This document shows, one piece after another, positions 52,200 through 64,000 of a DNA stretch of 64,000 nucleotides. Under the pieces are notes generated by a model that made no database searches, was not told the DNA's origin, and saw only the letters and a program-made list of their open reading frames with translations. The position numbers were made by a program, and so were the translations under genes. Position 1 is the first letter of the stretch, and every line of letters starts with the position of its first letter. The stretch is from an uncultured Actinomycetes bacterium (GTDB taxonomy: Bacteria; Actinomycetota; Actinomycetes; Nanopelagicales; Nanopelagicaceae), in NCBI GenBank assembly GCA_903852815.1, contig CAINRW010000044.1, positions 1-64,000 of the forward strand. Direction: 5' to 3'.

Positions 52200-52958
52200 T
52201 TATCGTAGATGAACTACGTCGCCGGCCTGTACGTGCGTTCCTGAGTCTAAAACTAGTTCACCGCGAGCTGAAATATCTACCGCGACCGCCTTTTCAACGC
52301 GATTATCAGGAAAATGAACTTCAACTTCACTGCCTAGAGTTGAACTTAAGTTTTTATAAACGGTAACTATCGCATCACTGCCGTTGTCCCAGTCCACAAA
52401 ATAATCTTCAAACTGACGTAGAACTTTGCATAATAAATCATTTCGATCAAAACCTATTGCTCCTTGCAATGCCAATGATGTTGCCGTTGGCACTGGAAGC
52501 TGCGCTTCATTCATGCCAGTGTTTATGCCAATCCCAAGCACTATGCCATCACCAACAATTTCTGCAATTAGACCAGATACTTTTTTCTCATTAATTAAAA
52601 TGTCATTGGGCCATTTAACTTGTGCCTTGTAATCAGCTAAAGCCGATGCGACAGTCGCGCCGGCAATTAAGGCGATCCAGCCCCAATCTTCTCTATTTCT
52701 TTTTGGTTGAACAAAGAAAGAAAAAAGCAAAGCCGTAGCTTTCGGTGCCTCAAAACTTCTCGACATTCGTCCACGACCTGCACTTTGAAACTCTGCAGTA
52801 ATTACATCGCCGGCCGCAGCCTTGCCCTCGCGTACGAGTTGGGCAAGGTCGCTCTGCGTTGATGCGGTGACGTCAACCACGCTTACTCGCCAGTACTGCG
52901 TGAGCAATTCATTGATCTTTGCGTTATCAAGTGCCGCGCTTAGCATTTCATTGCCCAT
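52200..52958 (-). CDS. birA: Biotin--[acetyl-CoA-carboxylase] ligase
   Basis: [55 protein letters not shown]; start at 52958 (MGNEM) chosen, 52994 overlaps the divergent gene. Confidence 0.92.
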
Positions 52959-52976
52959 GACATGTACCGTAGGGGT
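52959..52976. promoter_or_regulatory. 18-bp divergent spacer with symmetric shared -10 element TACCGTA
   Basis: Plus -10 TACCGT 52965-52970 + 6 nt + ATG 52977; minus -10 TACGGT (52966-52971) + 7 nt + ATG at 52958. Confidence 0.6.
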
Positions 52977-54548
52977 ATGAGCCGTGATCTGCATACAACT
53001 GCCGGAAAAATTGAAGATTTAAGTTCACGAATTGAGGAAGCGGTCCATGCCGGTTCTGCTCGTGCGGTAGAAAAACAACATGCCAAGGGCAAAAATACTG
53101 CCCGCGAACGAATCGAGATGTTGGTAGATCCAGATTCCTTTACTGAAATCGATGAGTTTGCCCGTCATCGCTCAACTCAGTTTGGTATGGAAAATAATCG
53201 CCCTTACGGAGACGGAGTTGTGATTGGTACAGCAACCGTTGATGGTCGCCCAATCGCCCTTTATTCACAAGATTTCACAATCATGGGTGGATCTCTCGGT
53301 GAAGTTCACGCAGAGAAAATTGTAAAGATTGCAGAATTTGCGCTCAAGAGTGGAATTCCACTTATCGGAATTAATGATTCAGGTGGTGCGCGAATTCAAG
53401 AAGGCGTTGCTTCACTTGCTGGTTACGGAAAGATTTTTAGACTCAATACACGCTCATCGGGTGTGATTCCACAAATTTCCTTAATCCTGGGTCCTTGTGC
53501 GGGAGGCTCAGCTTATTCACCAGCGCTTACAGATTTCACCGTCATGGTCAACGAAACTTCGCATATGTTTATTACTGGTCCAGATGTCATTAAGACTGTA
53601 ACTGGTGAAGAAGTTGGAATGGAAGAGTTAGGTGGTGCAAGAACTCATAACACTCGCACTGGTAACTCACATTACTTGGCCGAAAATGAAGCCGATGCAA
53701 TTGATTATGTAAAAGCACTTCTTTCATATTTACCTTCAAATAATATGGATGGAGTTCCACACTTACCACCAACTGAAACTTTAGAGTTAAAAGCATCCGA
53801 CACTTCTTTGGACACTTTAATTCCAGATAGTCCAAATCAGCCATATGACATGAAGGTTTTAATTCAAGCGCTCGTCGATGAAGGTGAATTCTTAGAGGTA
53901 CATGCACTCTATGCACCAAATATTGTTGTTGGCTTTGCCCGCATCGAAGGTGAATCGATTGGAATAATCGCTAACCAGCCAAATCAATTAGCTGGAACTC
54001 TTGATATTAACTCCAGTGAAAAAGCTGCACGTTTCTTACGCTTTTGTGATGCCTTTAATATTCCAATTTTGACACTCGTTGATGTCCCAGGATTTCTTCC
54101 AGGAACTGAACAAGAGTGGGATGGAATTATTCGACGTGGAGCAAAATTACTGTATGCCTATGCCGAGGCATCGGTTCCACTTGTCACCTTGATTACGCGC
54201 AAAGCGTACGGTGGCGCTTTTATTGTTATGGGATCTAAGTATCTCGGTAGTGATATTAATTTTGCGTGGCCAAGTGCTGAAATTGCAGTCATGGGTGCAC
54301 AAGGTGCAGTCAATATTCTTTATCGTAAAGAACTTGCTGAATCTAAAGATCCAGTGGCTAAACGCGCGCAACTTGTTAATGACTACAACGAATCTCTAGC
54401 AAATCCTTACTTGGCTGCAGAGCGCGGAACGATTGATACTGTCATAGAACCGAATCAATCTCGCGCATACATCACTAAGGCTTTCAGAACGCTTCGAACT
54501 AAGCGTGACACCTTGCCTGCTCGCAAGCATGGAAATATTCCGCTGTAA
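52977..54548 (+). CDS. accD: Acyl-CoA carboxylase carboxyltransferase (beta) subunit
   Basis: [65 protein letters not shown]-like [15 protein letters not shown]. Confidence 0.95.
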
Positions 54549-54730
54549 TGAAGTTTTCAATAATTAATGGGAACCCAACACCCGAAGAGTTAGCCGCGAT
54601 TCATGCCGCAATGGCGCAACATAAACGTGAAGAGCTCACGCCAGTTATTCGTCGAAGTGTTTACGGTTTGCCACAATTACGACAGGGCCTGCCGCATCAA
54701 ATAACTTTTGGCGCACGGAAGAATTCTTAG
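54548..54730 (+). CDS. accE: Acyl-CoA carboxylase epsilon subunit
   Basis: 60 aa IINGNPTPEELAAIHAAM; between accD and maf. Confidence 0.85.
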   Translation: MKFSIINGNPTPEELAAIHAAMAQHKREELTPVIRRSVYGLPQLRQGLPHQITFGARKNS

Positions 54731-54733
54731 CCA

Positions 54734-55336
54734 ATGCCACGTATCGTATTAGCTTCAGCTTCGACCTCACGTCGACGCCTTCTTGAATCTGCTGGTTTAA
54801 AACCAACGATTATGGTCAGTCATGTTGATGAAGAAACTGATTTTTTCAATTCAATGTCGCCTTCCGACATGGTGATTGCATTAGCAATCACTAAAGCGCA
54901 CACAATTCGTGAGCAAATAGATTTTCCAGCAATAATTATTGGTTGTGATTCAACTTTTGAATTTCAAGGCCAATCATTAGGTAAGCCTGGAACTCCAGCA
55001 GTTGCAATCGAGCGCGCTTCGCGAGTTCGCGGCAAATCCGGCCTACTCCATACAGGCCATTGCATTATTGATACTGAAAAAGGCAAAGAGATTTCGAGCA
55101 TCGTTACAACTAAAGTAACTTTCGATGACATGAGCGATGCTGAAATTGCAGATTACGTAGCAAGCGGTGAACCGCTTCATGTAGCTGGTGGCTTCACTCT
55201 CGATGGCTTTAGTTCGCCCTTTATTCCACTCATTGAAGGTGACTACACAAATGTTGTAGGAATTTCTATGCCTTTCGTTAGACAAGCTTTTAAACAACTT
55301 GGATATTCTTGGCCAGAGGTAAAGGTGATGCAATGA
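54734..55336 (+). CDS. maf: Maf family nucleotide pyrophosphatase
   Basis: [54 protein letters not shown]. Confidence 0.95.
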
Positions 55337-57051
55337 AACGCGTTTTAATCGCAAATCGAGGTGAAATTGCCGTCCGTGTGATCCGTGCATGCAAGGATCA
55401 TGGTTTAGAGAGCGTTGCTGTTTACTCTGATGAGGATCGCACCGCGATTCACGCACAGATTGCCGATGCTGCTTTTTCACTGAAAGGCACAACTGCCACA
55501 CAGACGTATTTGAATATTGAAAAGCTAATCGCAGTTGCAAAAGAGTCAGGCGCAGATGCAGTTCACCCTGGTTATGGATTTCTTTCAGAGAATGCCAATT
55601 TTGCACAGGCTGTTATTGATGCAGGATTGATTTGGATTGGACCGCCACCGGCAGCTATTCGAGCACTTGGCGATAAAGTCTCAGCGCGCAAAATTGCCGC
55701 CAAAGCTGGCGCACCACTAGTTGCTGGTACAAAAGATCCGGTTGCAGGTCACGAAGAAGTTATTGAATTTGCGAAAGAGCATGGGTTACCGGTTGCAATT
55801 AAGGCCGCACATGGTGGCGGTGGTCGCGGACTTAAAGTTGCGCGCACGATGGAGGAGATTCCAGAGTTATTTGCATCGGCAGTGCGTGAGGCAATTAGTG
55901 GTTTCGGTAGAGGCGAATGTTTTGTTGAGCGATATTTAGATAAACCTCGACACGTTGAAACCCAAGTACTCGTTGATCACAGTGGACATGCAGTAGTAGT
56001 TAGTACTCGCGATTGTTCACTTCAACGTCGCCATCAAAAACTTGTTGAAGAAGCGCCCGCACCATTTTTAACGCAAGAACAAAATCAAGAGTTGTATCGC
56101 TCCAGTAAAGCCATCATGAAAGAGGCGGGTTACGTTGGCGCAGGAACGTGCGAATTTTTAGTCGGTGCAGATGGAACCATTTCATTCTTAGAAGTAAATA
56201 CTCGACTTCAAGTTGAGCACCCAGTGAGTGAAGAAGTTACCGGGATTGATTTAGTTCGTGAACAGTTCCGAATTGCGATGGGTGAATCACTTGGTTTTGA
56301 TGATCCAGTTATTCGTGGACACTCTTTTGAATTTCGTATTAACGGCGAAGATCCTGGTCGCTCATTTCTTCCAGCACCAGGCCGTATCACTGAGTGGGTC
56401 ATTCCGACTGGCCCAGGTGTGCGCATCGATGCCGGTTTTAAGAATGGTGACACCATTGGTGGAAACTTCGATTCACTTCTTGCAAAATTAATTGTCACTG
56501 GAGCAACGCGTGAACAGGCCCTTGAACGTGCACGTCGGGCTTTAGCTGAATTTACGGTTGAAGGTTTAGCTACTGCGATTCCATTTCACCGTGCAATCGT
56601 GGAAGATCGCGCTTTTACGCAAGACTTTACGGTTTACACAAGTTATATCGAAAATGAATTTACAAATGAGATTCCTGCATACCAAGCTAGCGCTTTGCCA
56701 ATAGAGACGCATATGGCCCCTGAACACTTGGTCACTGAAGTCAATGGAAAACGCTTTGAAATTTTGGTCCATGCGCCAAAGCCTGTAGTTAAACGCCACC
56801 GAGCCAAACAATCCATGGCTGGCGGTGCTGGCGGTGCATCTCTGGCAAGTCCGATGCAAGGAACCGTTGTAAAGATTGCACTTTCCGAAGGTGACCATGT
56901 TGAAGTTGGAGATTTAGTTATCGTTCTTGAGGCGATGAAAATGGAACAACCTTTAATGGCACATAAAGCAGGCATCATCAGTAATCTCACTGCAGTAATC
57001 GGCGCTACCGTTTCAAGTGGCACCGTACTTTGTGACATTATTGATGCATGA
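55333..57051 (+). CDS. accA: Acetyl/propionyl-CoA carboxylase alpha subunit (biotin carboxylase + BCCP)
   Basis: [35 protein letters not shown] biotinylation site; ATGA overlap with maf. Confidence 0.95.
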
Positions 57052-57878
57052 CAAATAGCGAACTCCTTTACACCGACCCACTCGCAGCTGCTGAGATTGC
57101 AGCTGCTGAGATTGCAGATCGCACTGGAGTTGAACTTCATGATGTTGCATTAGTAATGGGTTCTGGCTGGGTTGGCGCGGTCGACGCGCTAGGTGAGGCG
57201 ATATTTGAATGTAATGCTGAAGAATTCACAGGGTTCTTGCCACCCACCGTTGAAGGCCATTCCGGAAAAGTTCGTTCCTATGAACTTGATAGTGATGGAA
57301 AGAAATTGCGCGCTTTAGTTTTTCTTGGCCGCACGCATTTATATGAAGGAAAAGGTGTCGAACCAGTAGTGCACAGTGTTCGCACAGCAGTTAAAGCTGG
57401 TTGCAAAATTATAATTTTGACAAACGCATGTGGTGGAATTAATAGAGATTACACAGTTGGTCAACCTGTTCTCATTCGTGACCATATTTCACTTACTGCG
57501 GTTTCACCTTTATCTGGTGCCACTTTCGTTGATTTAACCGATCTATACAGTAAACGCATCCGTGAGATTGTGAAAAAGGAAGACTCGACTTTATCTGAAG
57601 GTGTTTATGTCCATTGGCGTGGTCCCACGTATGAAACACCTGCGGAGATAATTATGATGCGCACGATGGGAGCAGATTTAGTTGGAATGTCTACGGTTCC
57701 AGAGGCAATCGCGGCGCATGCACTAGGTGCTGAAGTCCTCGGTATCTCGCTGGTAACTAATGCTGCCGCTGGAGTAACGGGTGAAAAACTCAATCATGAA
57801 GAAGTAATCGCTGCCGGTAAGGCCGCTGCAAGTCGAATGGGCGCACTTCTCAAAGGGGTTATTCCGAAGTTATTCTAG
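57048..57878 (+). CDS. punA: Purine-nucleoside phosphorylase
   Basis: [66 protein letters not shown]. Confidence 0.95.
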
Positions 57879-57882
57879 GAAC

Positions 57883-59493
57883 ATGGATCTTAAGCAAGAA
57901 GTAGAACTATGGATTGCAGATGATCCAGATGAGAAAACGGCCCAGCAGTTACAAGAATGGCTGAACACAAATAACGAAGCGCAATTGCGCGCATCTTTCT
58001 CTGGATTTTTACAGTTTGGCACTGCTGGACTTCGTGGACCTATTCGACCCGGCCCATCTGGAATGAATCGCGCGGTCGTAGGTCGCGCGGCTGCAGGTAT
58101 TGCGGCTTACATGCGCGAGCGAAATCTTTCCAGTGTGGTTATCGGGCGCGATGCGCGTCATGGCTCTGAAGATTTCACTTTCGAAACGGCTGAAATTATG
58201 TCTGGCGCGGGGATGAAAGTTTTCGTCTTACCCCGACCACTTCCAACACCTGTTCTTGCTTTTGCCACAAATGAATTGAAATGTGATGTTGGAATTATGG
58301 TCACCGCAAGTCATAACCCACCTCAAGATAATGGTTACAAGGTGTATTTAGGTGGTACCGTAGATGGAATCCATTACAGAGGTTCGCAAATAGTTTCTCC
58401 CACCGATGAAGCTATTGCTGAAAAAATTGCATCCATAAATTCATTAAAATCACAACCGCGAGGAAAAGTTTGGACAATCGTGGGCGAAGAAGTTGTTCAC
58501 AAATACGTAGGGATTACAGCATCACTTGCGCATAGACCTGGAAATTTAAAGATTGTTTATACGGCAATGCATGGTGTGGGAACCGAAACATTGCAACATG
58601 TTTTTTATAAAGCCGGTTTTCCTCAACCAATTCTCGTCGATGCGCAATCCAAACCAGATCCAGATTTTCCAACTGTAGCTTTTCCAAATCCTGAAGAGCC
58701 CGGTGCCATAGATCTTGCACTTGAAACTGCCAGGAATTTTGATGCTGATCTGGTTATCGCAAATGATCCAGATGCAGATCGATGCGCCGCAGCGGTTAAG
58801 GATCCAATTCTTGGCTGGAGAATGTTGCGCGGAGATGAACTCGGCGTTGTGTTGGGTGAAACAATTGCACGAGAAACAACGTCAGGAATTCTGGCTAACT
58901 CAATAGTTTCATCTTCGATTCTTAAGAAAATTGCGGGACATTACGACCATGAATTTAAGGAAACGCTCACAGGATTTAAATGGTTAGCAAAGATTGAGGG
59001 TCTAACTTTTGGTTATGAAGAAGCTCTTGGTTACGCCGTGGATGCGATAACAGTAAATGATAAAGATGGAATCTCGGCAGCAATTAAACTTGCACAAATA
59101 GCCACGGATTTAGCTAACCAGAATAAAACAATTTTGGATTTACTTGACGAAGTCTGGCAACGTCATGGTTTTCATGCAACTGAACAGATATCTATTCGTC
59201 TACAGAATCTCTCCCAAGTTGGTCAGATTATGGGAAATCTGCGAAGTAATTCGCCCGAAGAAATTGCTGGGCGAAAAGTTGAATCGATTGATGATTTAAA
59301 TCAACCAAAAGATGGCCTTCCACCAACTGATGGTTTGCGACTCTGGTTAGCCGGCGGAATTCGAATCATAATTCGTCCTAGCGGCACTGAAGCAAAGATG
59401 AAGTGTTACATTGAGGTCATTGAAAAGGATTCTCAACTTGCTCAAGTAGTTCTGGATCAACTGCGAGCCCCATTGAAGGAATTACTACAGTGA
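57883..59493 (+). CDS. Phospho-sugar mutase (alpha-PGM superfamily, PGM2/PmmB-like; possible phosphopentomutase)
   Basis: LQFGTAGLRGPIRPGPSGMN, MVTASHNPPQDNGYKVYLGG, IANDPDADRCAAAV; between punA and deoC. Confidence 0.9.
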   Translation: MDLKQEVELWIADDPDEKTAQQLQEWLNTNNEAQLRASFSGFLQFGTAGLRGPIRPGPSGMNRAVVGRAAAGIAAYMRERNLSSVVIGRDARHGSEDFTFETAEIMSGAGMKVFVLPRPLPTPVLAFATNELKCDVGIMVTASHNPPQDNGYKVYLGGTVDGIHYRGSQIVSPTDEAIAEKIASINSLKSQPRGKVWTIVGEEVVHKYVGITASLAHRPGNLKIVYTAMHGVGTETLQHVFYKAGFPQPILVDAQSKPDPDFPTVAFPNPEEPGAIDLALETARNFDADLVIANDPDADRCAAAVKDPILGWRMLRGDELGVVLGETIARETTSGILANSIVSSSILKKIAGHYDHEFKETLTGFKWLAKIEGLTFGYEEALGYAVDAITVNDKDGISAAIKLAQIATDLANQNKTILDLLDEVWQRHGFHATEQISIRLQNLSQVGQIMGNLRSNSPEEIAGRKVESIDDLNQPKDGLPPTDGLRLWLAGGIRIIIRPSGTEAKMKCYIEVIEKDSQLAQVVLDQLRAPLKELLQ

Positions 59494-60437
59494 AATTTTT
59501 CGGTTTAGTTGATGGCAGTGATTCATCTCTAAGAAAATTCCTGGCCTCACTTCCAGCGGTAGATCAAGTTGGTGCAGATTCAAGAGCGGCCATGCTTGCT
59601 ACACGAAGTATCAAAGCATCATCAAAGCGTTGGGCAATCGATACGGCGATTCGTATGGTTGATTTAACAACTCTTGAAGGTGCCGATACCCGCGGAAAAG
59701 TTGAAGCTCTCTGCACAAAAGCCGTCCGTCCTGATCCCACAAATCCTGATGTGCCAAGTGTGGGAGCAGTGTGTGTCTATAACGACATGGTTGGAATTGC
59801 CAGAACTCATTTGGATTTAATTGGCGGTCAACATGTTGGAGTTGCCGCGGTATCAACTGCCTTCCCTTCAGGCCGGGCCTCAATGAGCGTTAAAATTCAA
59901 GATACACAAGATGCAATCGATGCCGGTGCCTCTGAAATCGATATGGTGATTGACCGTGGTGCATTTCTTTCTGGAAACTACATCGATGTATTCAATGAGA
60001 TTGTTGCAATCCGAGAAATTTGTGGCGACAAAGCCCACTTAAAAGTTATTTTTGAAACTGGAGAACTTGTCACCTATGACAACGTTCGTAAAGCATCATT
60101 TCTAGCAATGGCCGCCGGGGCCCACTTCATTAAAACATCCACTGGAAAAGTTGCACCGGCCGCAACTGCACCTGTTGTCTTAGTAATGCTAGAAGCAGTA
60201 CGTGATTTCTACGCGATGACACAGGTTCGAATAGGTGTTAAACCCGCTGGAGGAATTCGTACTACTAAAGATGCCATCAAGCAATTGGTGCTAGTCAATG
60301 AAACTGCTGGGCCCGACTGGCTTACACCTTCACTTTTCCGAATCGGTGCAAGCGCGCTACTCAATGATTTATTAATGCAACGCATGAAAATGGATGATGG
60401 CTACTACGCTAGCCCTCAGTATGTAACGATCGATTAA
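59490..60437 (+). CDS. deoC: Deoxyribose-phosphate aldolase
   Basis: AVSTAFPSG, EIDMVIDRG, LKVIFETGEL, FIKTSTGK Schiff-base Lys, VKPAGGIRT. Confidence 0.95.
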   Translation: MKFFGLVDGSDSSLRKFLASLPAVDQVGADSRAAMLATRSIKASSKRWAIDTAIRMVDLTTLEGADTRGKVEALCTKAVRPDPTNPDVPSVGAVCVYNDMVGIARTHLDLIGGQHVGVAAVSTAFPSGRASMSVKIQDTQDAIDAGASEIDMVIDRGAFLSGNYIDVFNEIVAIREICGDKAHLKVIFETGELVTYDNVRKASFLAMAAGAHFIKTSTGKVAPAATAPVVLVMLEAVRDFYAMTQVRIGVKPAGGIRTTKDAIKQLVLVNETAGPDWLTPSLFRIGASALLNDLLMQRMKMDDGYYASPQYVTID

Positions 60438-61888
60438 TGGAGGATAAAGTGAGTTTTGAATATGCGCCAGCTCCAGAATCACGCACGGTCGTTTCAATAA
60501 AAGCCAAATATGGACATTTCATTGGCGGAAAGTTTGTCGCTGGCAATAAACACTTCCCAACCATAAATCCAGCAACTGAAGAAGTTCTCTCTCAGATTGC
60601 TCTTGCAGGAAAAGCTGAAGTTGATGCGGCAGTTAAGGCAGCGCGCAAGGCTTATACGACCACGTGGTCGAAAATGAGTGGACGCGAACGTGGAAAGTAT
60701 TTATTCCGAATCGCGCGCATAATGCAGGAACGCTCTCGTGAATTCGCCGTTCTTGAAACCCTTGATAATGGAAAACCTATTCGCGAATCACGTGATACAG
60801 ATATTCCACTAGCTGCTGCGCACTTTTTCTATCATGCCGGTTGGGCAGATAAATTGGAATACGCAGGTCTTGGCACCGTCACTAAAGCACATGGTGTTGC
60901 CGGACAGATAATTCCATGGAACTTTCCACTTCTTATGTTGGCTTGGAAAGTTGCACCCGCCCTTGCCGCAGGTAACACCGTAGTTTTAAAGCCGGCAGAA
61001 TCGACTTCACTGACAGCATTACTTTTTGCCGAGGTGTGTCAGCAAGCCGAACTTCCTGCTGGAGTTGTCAATATTGTTACTGGTGATGGTTCTACTGGTG
61101 CACTTATTGTCAATCATCCAGGAATCGACAAGATTGCTTTCACTGGATCAACTGAAGTTGGAAAATTAATTGCGCGCGCAGTTGCTCCAACTTCAAAGAG
61201 TGTAACTCTAGAGCTCGGTGGAAAAGCTGCAAATATTGTTTTTGAAGATGCAGCAATCGATGAAGCCGTCGAGGGAATCGTTAATGGAATCTTTTTCAAT
61301 CAAGGTCATGTTTGTTGTGCGGGGTCACGACTGTTATTGCAAGAAAATATTGCCGAAGAAGTTCTAGAGAAACTTAAAGTCAGAATGGCAAAAATTCGTG
61401 TTGGCGATCCGATGGATAAGAACACAGATTTAGGTGCGATTAATAGTAAAGAACAACTAAATAAAATAACTGAACTTACTGCCACTGGTGATTCAGAAGG
61501 AGCGCAGCGTTGGAGTGCCCCTTGCGAACTGCCTGGAAAGGGTTTTTGGTTTGCTCCCACTATCTTTATTGGGGTTACCCAAACACATCGCATTGCTCGC
61601 GAAGAGATTTTTGGTCCAGTTTTATCGGTCTTAACTTTTAGAACCCCACAAGAAGCTATCGATAAAGCGAATAACACACCTTTCGGCTTATCTGCAGGAA
61701 TCTGGAGTGATAAAGGTTCGAAAATCTTATGGGCATCATCCCAACTTCGTGCCGGAGTTATTTGGGCAAATACCTTTAATAAATTTGATCCAACATCACC
61801 GTTTGGCGGATATAAAGAATCTGGCTGGGGCCGTGAAGGTGGCCGTCATGGTCTCAGTGCATATTTGAAGGGAGCATCACATGAGTAA
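60437..61888 (+). CDS. Aldehyde dehydrogenase
   Basis: IIPWNFPLLMLAWKVAPALAAGNTVVLKPAE, VTLELGGKAANIVF, FFNQGHVCCAGSRL catalytic Cys. Confidence 0.95.
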   Translation: MEDKVSFEYAPAPESRTVVSIKAKYGHFIGGKFVAGNKHFPTINPATEEVLSQIALAGKAEVDAAVKAARKAYTTTWSKMSGRERGKYLFRIARIMQERSREFAVLETLDNGKPIRESRDTDIPLAAAHFFYHAGWADKLEYAGLGTVTKAHGVAGQIIPWNFPLLMLAWKVAPALAAGNTVVLKPAESTSLTALLFAEVCQQAELPAGVVNIVTGDGSTGALIVNHPGIDKIAFTGSTEVGKLIARAVAPTSKSVTLELGGKAANIVFEDAAIDEAVEGIVNGIFFNQGHVCCAGSRLLLQENIAEEVLEKLKVRMAKIRVGDPMDKNTDLGAINSKEQLNKITELTATGDSEGAQRWSAPCELPGKGFWFAPTIFIGVTQTHRIAREEIFGPVLSVLTFRTPQEAIDKANNTPFGLSAGIWSDKGSKILWASSQLRAGVIWANTFNKFDPTSPFGGYKESGWGREGGRHGLSAYLKGASHE

Positions 61889-62723
61889 TCGAATTGATGT
61901 GAAAAAAACTTACAAGCTTTATATCAATGGAGTTTTTCCACGTACTGAATCGGGCCGCACGTACGAAGTCAAAAATGCAAAAGGTGATTTCATTGCTAAC
62001 CCATGTCTTGCATCGCGTAAAGATTTAAAGGATGCAGTCGTTGCCGCCCGCGCCGCCCAGCCAGGTTGGAATAAAGCAACGGCCTACAACAAGGGTCAGA
62101 TTCTTTATCGAATTGCTGAGATGCTTGAAGGCCGAAGCGCTCAATTTGTTGATGAGATTTGCGCCGTTACTGGAGTCACTAAAACTGCAGCGGTAAAGGA
62201 AGTTAATGAATCAGTGGATCGTCTTGTTTGGTATGCCGGTTGGTCTGACAAAATTTCCTCCCTCACTGGTGCGCTCAATCCAGTGGCAGGTCCGTATTAC
62301 AACTTTACGATTCCTGAAAGTATGGGGGTCATTGCTGCCATTGCACCAGAATCTCCATCATTGCTTGGATTGATTGATGCGATTTCTCCGATAATTGTCG
62401 GTGGCAATACTGTGGTGGTTCTGGCAAGTAACAAAGCCCCACTTTCTGCCATGAGTTTTGCTGAAGTACTTGCTACAAGTGATGTTCCGGCAGGTGTTAT
62501 CAATATTTTGACTGGCAAGAAAGAAGAGATTGCGCCTTGGATGGCATCTCATATGGATATCGATGGTTTTGATATTTCAGGATTAAATAAAAAAATGCAC
62601 ACCGACATCAAAGTTGCTGGAGCCGAAAACCTTAAACGGATTTACTCCTTTAAAGCCGCTGAACCAGGACGTATTTTAGCTTTCCTTGAGAATAAAACCG
62701 TTTGGCACCCAATCGGAATTTAA
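61881..62723 (+). CDS. Truncated aldehyde dehydrogenase-like protein lacking the catalytic domain
   Basis: 280 aa; N-terminal ALDH domain through VPAGVINILTGKKEEI, then a short divergent tail; no ELGGK or catalytic Cys motif. Confidence 0.85.
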   Translation: MSNRIDVKKTYKLYINGVFPRTESGRTYEVKNAKGDFIANPCLASRKDLKDAVVAARAAQPGWNKATAYNKGQILYRIAEMLEGRSAQFVDEICAVTGVTKTAAVKEVNESVDRLVWYAGWSDKISSLTGALNPVAGPYYNFTIPESMGVIAAIAPESPSLLGLIDAISPIIVGGNTVVVLASNKAPLSAMSFAEVLATSDVPAGVINILTGKKEEIAPWMASHMDIDGFDISGLNKKMHTDIKVAGAENLKRIYSFKAAEPGRILAFLENKTVWHPIGI

Positions 62724-62727
62724 CGGC

Positions 62728-63684
62728 TTATTCAACCCATTGTGAATCAATAGTTTTAAACCACAGTTGCTCAACTGCAGCGACATCTAAATCTAGAGTC
62801 ACGCGCACTGACGCCGAATCAACGAGATCAAGTGGCTCAAGCGCTTTAAGAAATGGTGCTCGGCGATCACAAATAGTTTGACCACGTGCAGGTCCATGTG
62901 AAGTATCAACAACTACATCGAAAATCTCTGTGGTAAATAATTCGGGATGAATTGCACTAGCTACTGCCCCGTAATCACCCAACGTGATTGGCGATACATG
63001 CAAACGTTCTATAAATGCATCGATCAAAGTTCCAGCAAATTGCGCAGCAGGATCTGAGGAGGCTTTAAGTTTTGCAGCATCGGAACTTGTTGCACCAGGG
63101 CGCATAAAGACATCGAGACCATACATAGTTATTGGGACACCGCTTTGGAAAACAATGGCTGCCGCTTCTGGATCGTGCCACACGTTAAATTCTGCAGCTG
63201 CTGTCGCATTTCCTGCCGAGGCTGAACCTCCCATCAAAACAATTCGATGCAACTTCTTAGCCGTCTCTGGAAATGCACGAAGAAACAAAGCAATATTTGT
63301 TAATGGTGCGATTGGCACCAAAGTTACTGGGTCATCAGAGTTTTCGATTAAATCTCGCAACAGCTCAACGGCCGTGCGCGAATCTACGGTTCGAGACGAA
63401 GGTGCGATACCGAGATCGCCCATACCATCTGCTCCATGTACATATTCGGCGTATTCAGATTTTCCAAGCAGTGGGCGCACTGCGCCTCGGGCAACTGGAA
63501 TATCACCAGCACCGGCTGCATCTAAGACTTTAAAAGTATTGGCGATAACTTGATCAACATTCGTATTTCCATCAACACATGTAATTCCGAGTAAATTGAT
63601 TTCTGGATGGCGCGCTGCGAATAAAACCGCAAAGGCATCATCTACACCAGTATCAACATCGAGAATGATTGAAGTTTTTTTCAT
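62728..63684 (-). CDS. Inosine-uridine preferring nucleoside hydrolase
   Basis: IILDVDTGVDDAFAVLFAARHPEINLLGITCVDGNTNVDQV; AEFNVWHDPEAAAIVFQSG. Confidence 0.95.
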   Translation of the reverse strand: MKKTSIILDVDTGVDDAFAVLFAARHPEINLLGITCVDGNTNVDQVIANTFKVLDAAGAGDIPVARGAVRPLLGKSEYAEYVHGADGMGDLGIAPSSRTVDSRTAVELLRDLIENSDDPVTLVPIAPLTNIALFLRAFPETAKKLHRIVLMGGSASAGNATAAAEFNVWHDPEAAAIVFQSGVPITMYGLDVFMRPGATSSDAAKLKASSDPAAQFAGTLIDAFIERLHVSPITLGDYGAVASAIHPELFTTEIFDVVVDTSHGPARGQTICDRRAPFLKALEPLDLVDSASVRVTLDLDVAAVEQLWFKTIDSQWVE

Positions 63685-63702
63685 AAGCGATAGCCTATCT
63701 CT
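63685..63702. promoter_or_regulatory. 18-bp divergent spacer with symmetric shared -10 element TAGCCTA
   Basis: Plus -10 TAGCCT 63691-63696 + 6 nt + ATG 63703; minus -10 TAGGCT (63692-63697) + 7 nt + ATG at 63684. Confidence 0.6.
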
Positions 63703-64000
63703 ATGAGTAAAGCGGTCATAGCAGTAGTCGGAAGTGCAATGATTGATTTAACTGCATATGCAAGCCTTATTCCAGCACCCGGTCAAACTCTCGAAGGTGA
63801 TTTATTTACAACTGGTTTCGGTGGAAAAGGGGCAAATCAAGGGGTTATTGGGGCGTTATGTGGCGCCCAGGTTCACTTCATTGGAAAACTGGGTAACGAT
63901 CTTTTCGGAGATTCAATTTACGAGAATTTTAAACAATTAGGGATTGATACAAAATTTGTTGATCGCTCAGATACTCCTAATGGAGTTGCTCATATCTGGG
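63703..64000 (+). CDS. Ribokinase/PfkB family sugar kinase, N-terminal part (runs off window)
   Basis: MSKAVIAVVGSAMIDLTAYASLIPAPGQTLEGDLFTTGFGGKGANQGVIGALCGAQVHFIGKLGNDLFGDSIYENFKQLGIDTKFVD. Confidence 0.9.
   Translation, partial: MSKAVIAVVGSAMIDLTAYASLIPAPGQTLEGDLFTTGFGGKGANQGVIGALCGAQVHFIGKLGNDLFGDSIYENFKQLGIDTKFVDRSDTPNGVAHIW

Follow-up and report, generated by a model that had tools for sequence, protein, structure and literature searches.

A putative symmetric two-way promoter in the 18-bp spacer between nucleoside hydrolase and ribokinase-like genes of a freshwater actinobacterium

The 18 bp between a nucleoside hydrolase gene and a divergent, ribokinase-like kinase gene of an uncultured actinobacterium very probably form one symmetric bidirectional promoter that would serve two leaderless genes. 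We infer the start sites, the firing in both directions, the use of a -35 element and the co-expression of the two genes from the sequence and its conservation, from the leaderless signature of the genus and from the over-representation of the layout. Most likely the spacer is a neat and conserved example, in freshwater actinobacteria, of a kind of bidirectional promoter that is already known.

The spacer, its core and the genes that it separates

In the window, by which we mean the whole analysed stretch of 64,000 nucleotides, the spacer (AAGCGATAGCCTATCTCT, 63685-63702, assigned to neither strand) is the entire intergenic stretch of the divergent pair. The start codon of the hydrolase on the minus strand reads CAT at 63682-63684 and the ATG of the kinase on the plus strand lies at 63703-63705, each being the earliest start codon in its own frame. 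The symmetric core TAGCCTA (63691-63697) can be read as two overlapping -10 boxes, a putative kinase box TAGCCT on the plus strand (63691-63696), 6 nt before the ATG, and a putative hydrolase box TAGGCT on the minus strand (63692-63697), 7 nt before its ATG. The original prediction had described an 18-bp spacer with this 6-7-5 layout, heptamer and pair of gaps, and both its sequence and its coordinates were exact. A63692 and T63696 serve both strands, so that the key A and T of the two boxes are reciprocally paired. The first T of TANNNT precedes the ATG by 12 bp on the plus and by 13 bp on the minus strand, and no Shine-Dalgarno sequence (GGAG, AGGA or GAGG) was found in the 18 bp on either strand, as expected of leaderless genes. 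With a minus gap of 7 nt, the start-site distance predicted from the ATGs is 19 bp, compared to the canonical 18. A sigma-70 consensus scan, which demands a stronger -35/-10 match, returned no promoter at the spacer.

The heptamer is embedded in a longer near-palindrome, not mentioned in the original prediction, in which GATAG-C-CTATC is perfect and seven of the eight arm positions are complementary. Upstream of the kinase box, a CG on the plus strand (63688-63689) would correspond to that of CGN-TANNNT, as judged from the orthologous spacers and from Mycobacterium tuberculosis (PMC3898074). A mirror CG occurs at 63699-63700 in most orthologues; the window has CT there.

The minus-strand gene (62728-63684) encodes an IU-preferring nucleoside hydrolase (PF01156; the best NCBIfam model, RihC, scored below its cut-off). 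The plus-strand gene encodes a PfkB kinase (PF00294), which is cut by the window edge (63703-64000) and complete in the contig beyond it (298 aa). Of all models the ribokinase equivalog TIGR02152 scored best, with 278.6 against a cut-off of 299.65, and the kinase is therefore called ribokinase-like. Probably the hydrolase frees ribose from nucleosides and the kinase makes ribose 5-phosphate from it, the specificities being those predicted for the enzymes. The functional pairing of a hydrolase with a ribokinase, as it was first proposed, thus stands as a plausible link with a kinase that is ribokinase-like by score. A purine nucleoside phosphorylase (57048-57878), a phosphohexomutase-family protein (57883-59493), deoC (59490-60437) and two aldehyde dehydrogenases lie upstream and form, with the hydrolase, a nucleoside-use cluster at 57048-63684, which places the pair within a nucleoside-use region.

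In the mechanism that we propose, RNA polymerase with the housekeeping sigma factor would recognise TANNNT on either strand of TAGCCTA and would open identical DNA in one or the other orientation, and each transcript would start at, or within one base of, the A of its own ATG. As both mRNAs would lack a 5' leader, 18 bp would suffice; the 6-7-5 layout would arise because leaderless -10 boxes with gaps of 6 and 7 overlap as TANNNTA, giving 6 + 7 + 5 = 18 bp. The polymerase facing the kinase would probably also use a -35 element, TTGAAG, in codons 4-5 of the hydrolase. One melting site would be common to both genes, and hydrolase and kinase may be expressed together.

Orthologous spacers and the signature across the genus

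The relatives of this genome are Candidatus Planktophila-type (acI) actinobacteria. The pair with its 18-bp spacer was found in 38 genomes, the window included, which are phylogenetically non-independent. Six positions of the core (T63691, A63692, C63694, C63695, T63696 and A63697) are invariant in 38 of 38 and G63693 is kept in 35, while the flanks vary. Most of the 18-bp orthologues carry CG on both sides of the core (CGNTAGCCTANCG). The arm bases beside the core are mostly non-complementary (63690: A in 24, G in 7, C in 7; 63698: G in 29, T in 8, C in 1).

In five relatives the same pair is separated by 23 bp, four of these spacers being GGAGTTAGCCTATTATCTATTTC or one base off, and here a hydrolase box AGCCTA (gap 6) and a kinase box TATTAT (gap 7) overlap in the TA step alone (AGCC-TA-TTAT). 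In five other relatives the spacer is 65-66 bp long, with a separate TAGACT or TAGAAT 8-9 nt before the start of the upstream ORF; this ORF is kinase-like in four of the five, and in L058 it differs in sequence, probably because another frame was taken. Three of the five long spacers (L045, L047 and L058) have lost the plus-strand TA beside the hydrolase box and the hydrolase -10 remains, its position being kept as AGTCTA in L045 and L047. The other two (L042 and L046) retain the full TAGCCTA though the kinase no longer needs it, which counts against the promoter reading. Overall, the positions of the boxes appear to track each start codon, as expected if every box serves its own gene. With spacers of 18, 23 or about 65 bp in related genomes, this gene pair makes a clean series of putative minimal two-way promoters, on which one can ask whether selection for co-expression or only for compactness has led these abundant freshwater bacteria to share a -10.

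The genus background was sampled as 1.66 Mb, consisting of the window and spaced stretches of four genus genomes, and in the counts from it gene starts other than those of the main pair are uncurated. TANNNT preceded candidate ATG codons in 8.6% of cases at gap 6 and in 4.9% at gap 7, compared to approximately 0.7% elsewhere; GTG starts had a similar peak and TTG starts none. Because of this sharp peak 6-7 nt before ATG, leaderless transcription is probably common in the genus, as it is in other Actinobacteria (PMC3160421). A genus-wide -35 consensus was sought and not found. The leaderless starts assumed at the outset are consistent with the sequence on both sides, as TANNNT stands at gaps 6 and 7 and the genus peak falls there.

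The original prediction had been staked on the genome holding other such spacers, and it does: the 1.63 Mb in 149 contigs contain three CAT-N6-TANNNTA-N5-ATG sites, namely this spacer, one at 52956-52979 and one on contig C126. The second site has an 18-bp 6-7-5 spacer (GACATGTACCGTAGGGGT, 52959-52976, neither strand) between biotin protein ligase and carboxyltransferase genes, and is less clean since its start codons are ambiguous: within the spacer, at 52962, there is a further ATG in frame with the plus ORF, and the minus ORF can be read back to an ATG at 52994. The biotin protein ligase, carboxyltransferase and biotin carboxylase/carrier genes are grouped within 52200-57051, and thus the second pair also joins functionally linked genes.

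With both frames required to be open for at least 80 codons, TANNNTA lay between divergent starts of the 1.66-Mb sample at five sites in the four cells with flanks of 5-6 nt and at 13 in the other 252 (0.05 per cell). The Poisson probability of this excess is 2.6e-6, and 0.0013 without the two window sites. Across 61 genus genomes, where many sites are orthologous and hence non-independent and raw patterns include some non-genes, there were 98 sites of the 6-7-5 geometry versus 38 of a shifted 4-7-7 control. The 17-bp geometry 5-7-5 was in weak excess (38 sites versus 24 for the reversed control), and a 22-bp form, CAT-N6-ANNNTANNNT-N6-ATG, had 159 sites versus 13 in the reversed control, although in two of its three matches in the own genome one side has no open frame. 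A 9-7-2 control (9 sites in 135 genomes) was dropped in favour of 4-7-7: cells with 2 nt beside a start are depleted for other reasons, which made this control too favourable. The 22-bp doubly leaderless class, in which one TA step is shared, thus outnumbers the 18-bp class and has, for example, five sites in genome G014. Among 199 divergent pairs of the 1.66-Mb sample, 51 minus starts had leaderless-like boxes on both sides; the shortest doubly leaderless spacers were 17, 18, 18, 18, 22, 22, 23, 23, 23 and 25 bp long, and such short spacers would give start-site distances of 18-19 and 23-24 bp. Of the proposal of a recurrent promoter module, it holds that the element is promoter-like and recurs in the genome and the genus; a dedicated 18-bp 6-7-5 module does not emerge, as spacers of 17, 18, 22, 23 and 25 bp occur and the 22-bp form is commoner.

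A candidate -35 element in the hydrolase codons

A candidate -35 element for the kinase, TTGAAG (63669-63674, plus strand), lies 16 nt from the -10 and inside codons 4-6 of the hydrolase, of which codons 4 and 5 are frozen at synonymous positions. Among the 38 hydrolases compared, codon 4 (ACT in 38 of 38) and codon 5 (TCA in 37 of 38) are the only two of 108 four- or sixfold degenerate codons for invariant residues with an entropy below 0.3, the median over all degenerate invariant hydrolase codons being 1.5. We consider it rather probable that TTGAAG functions as the -35 of the kinase. As no genus-wide -35 exists, a codon-embedded one would be particular to this promoter; at the third own-genome pair none was found. 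No conserved counterpart facing the hydrolase was found either: ATGACC in the kinase codons (63719-63714, spacer 16) was a tempting candidate in the window, but it is not conserved and was rejected.

The frozen codons may instead reflect a constraint on the mRNA or the translation of a leaderless message, which is possible, but we lean against it. Hydrolase codons 3, 7, 9 and 11 are likewise frozen, which allows for a broader N-terminal or RNA-level constraint, and at the second own-genome pair codons 2-9 of the carboxyltransferase hardly vary at synonymous sites among 12 relatives, where no -35 is evident. However, the kinase, which would be equally leaderless, shows mild N-terminal freezing at most and nothing comparable to the hydrolase, and among the four- or sixfold degenerate codons of the hydrolase freezing is confined to the two in which TTGAAG is written, 16 nt from the -10. 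A -35 element of the kinase promoter fits this pattern.

Known promoters and alternative readings

Bidirectional promoters have been described in bacteria and archaea by Warman et al. (2021, Nat Microbiol). As that study is summarised in PMC12825309, their start sites are mostly 18 bp apart and also 10 and 23 bp; as a criterion for such promoters, divergent start sites should lie 7-25 bp apart, typically 18. According to the description in PMC10268837, the preferred distances follow from the reciprocal pairing of the key bases -11A and -7T. In Escherichia coli, basal firing of bidirectional promoters is too low for competition, but one side, when strongly activated, can repress the other (PMC12825309). 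Judged by these summaries, the spacer would resemble the promoters of Warman et al. in its single symmetric -10, its reciprocal A and T and a predicted distance of 19 bp. In contrast to them, both transcripts here would be leaderless and code for proteins, the promoter would be the intergenic region itself, and the starts are predictions from sequence. In leaderless actinobacterial promoters TANNNT stands approximately 12 bp ahead of the start codon (PMC3160421, PMC3898074), and in M. tuberculosis it is often preceded by CGN (PMC3898074). The spacer is like these in -10 consensus and position, in the lack of a -35 consensus and in CGN, whereas here two such promoters would overlap on one heptamer. 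It also resembles divergent promoters that lie close together in M. tuberculosis, among them those of prpD/Rv1129c with leaderless starts (PMC3898074), in the juxtaposition of promoters and in leaderless divergent genes. Our search of open-licence papers returned almost nothing on freshwater actinobacterial promoters and no report of doubly leaderless promoters with a shared box, the latter being weak evidence of absence.

It is very improbable that the start codons merely happen to be 18 bp apart around a common string. TANNNTA is short, and raw CAT/ATG matches are frequent when open frames are not required, but the three own-genome sites, the enrichment of the geometry in the genus and the conservation of the heptamer in 38 orthologous spacers bear out the original claim of more than chance. 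A by-product of compaction and box symmetry, with no selection for two-way firing or co-regulation, is a quite possible origin of the shared -10, though we lean slightly the other way. TANNNTA and ANNNTANNNT fix four bases for two boxes instead of six, the short classes observed correspond to these two four-base registers (17-18 and 22-23 bp), the same gene pair has separate boxes in some relatives, and the third own-genome pair joins genes without an evident link (metallophosphoesterase and MobA-like). Against this, 38 orthologues have retained the 18-bp spacer, and a functional link connects the genes in two of the three own-genome pairs (hydrolase/kinase and biotin protein ligase/biotin-dependent carboxylase). 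Such an origin is compatible with a bidirectional mechanism, as it concerns why the layout exists. A speculative and rather unlikely extension is that -10 sharing by leaderless pairs is a systematic genome compaction in acI, in which the intergenic region would be a two-way promoter of 17-23 bp, further elements would lie in the first codons of the partner and polymerase orientation would set the enzyme ratio.

The near-palindrome might also be the operator of a dimeric repressor silencing both genes, with the promoter role secondary, as the symmetric CG flanks are conserved in orthologues. We regard this as improbable, since the arm bases beside the core are non-complementary in most orthologues and the motif is rare elsewhere. 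In a search for CGNTAGNCTANCG in 62 genomes, the other sites inspected precede unrelated leaderless genes, a glutamine synthetase-like gene (L204/L205) and thrS (L208), and no nucleoside/ribose regulon or dedicated operator was found. CGN-TANNNT boxes in both directions account for the CGs, so that with a bidirectional promoter the palindrome would be explained without a dedicated regulator. As a minor observation, a similar CGTTAGGCTANCG box precedes the leaderless glutamine synthetase-like gene (L204 1548-1560, L205 1528-1540), its TAGGCT lying 7 nt ahead of the ATG.
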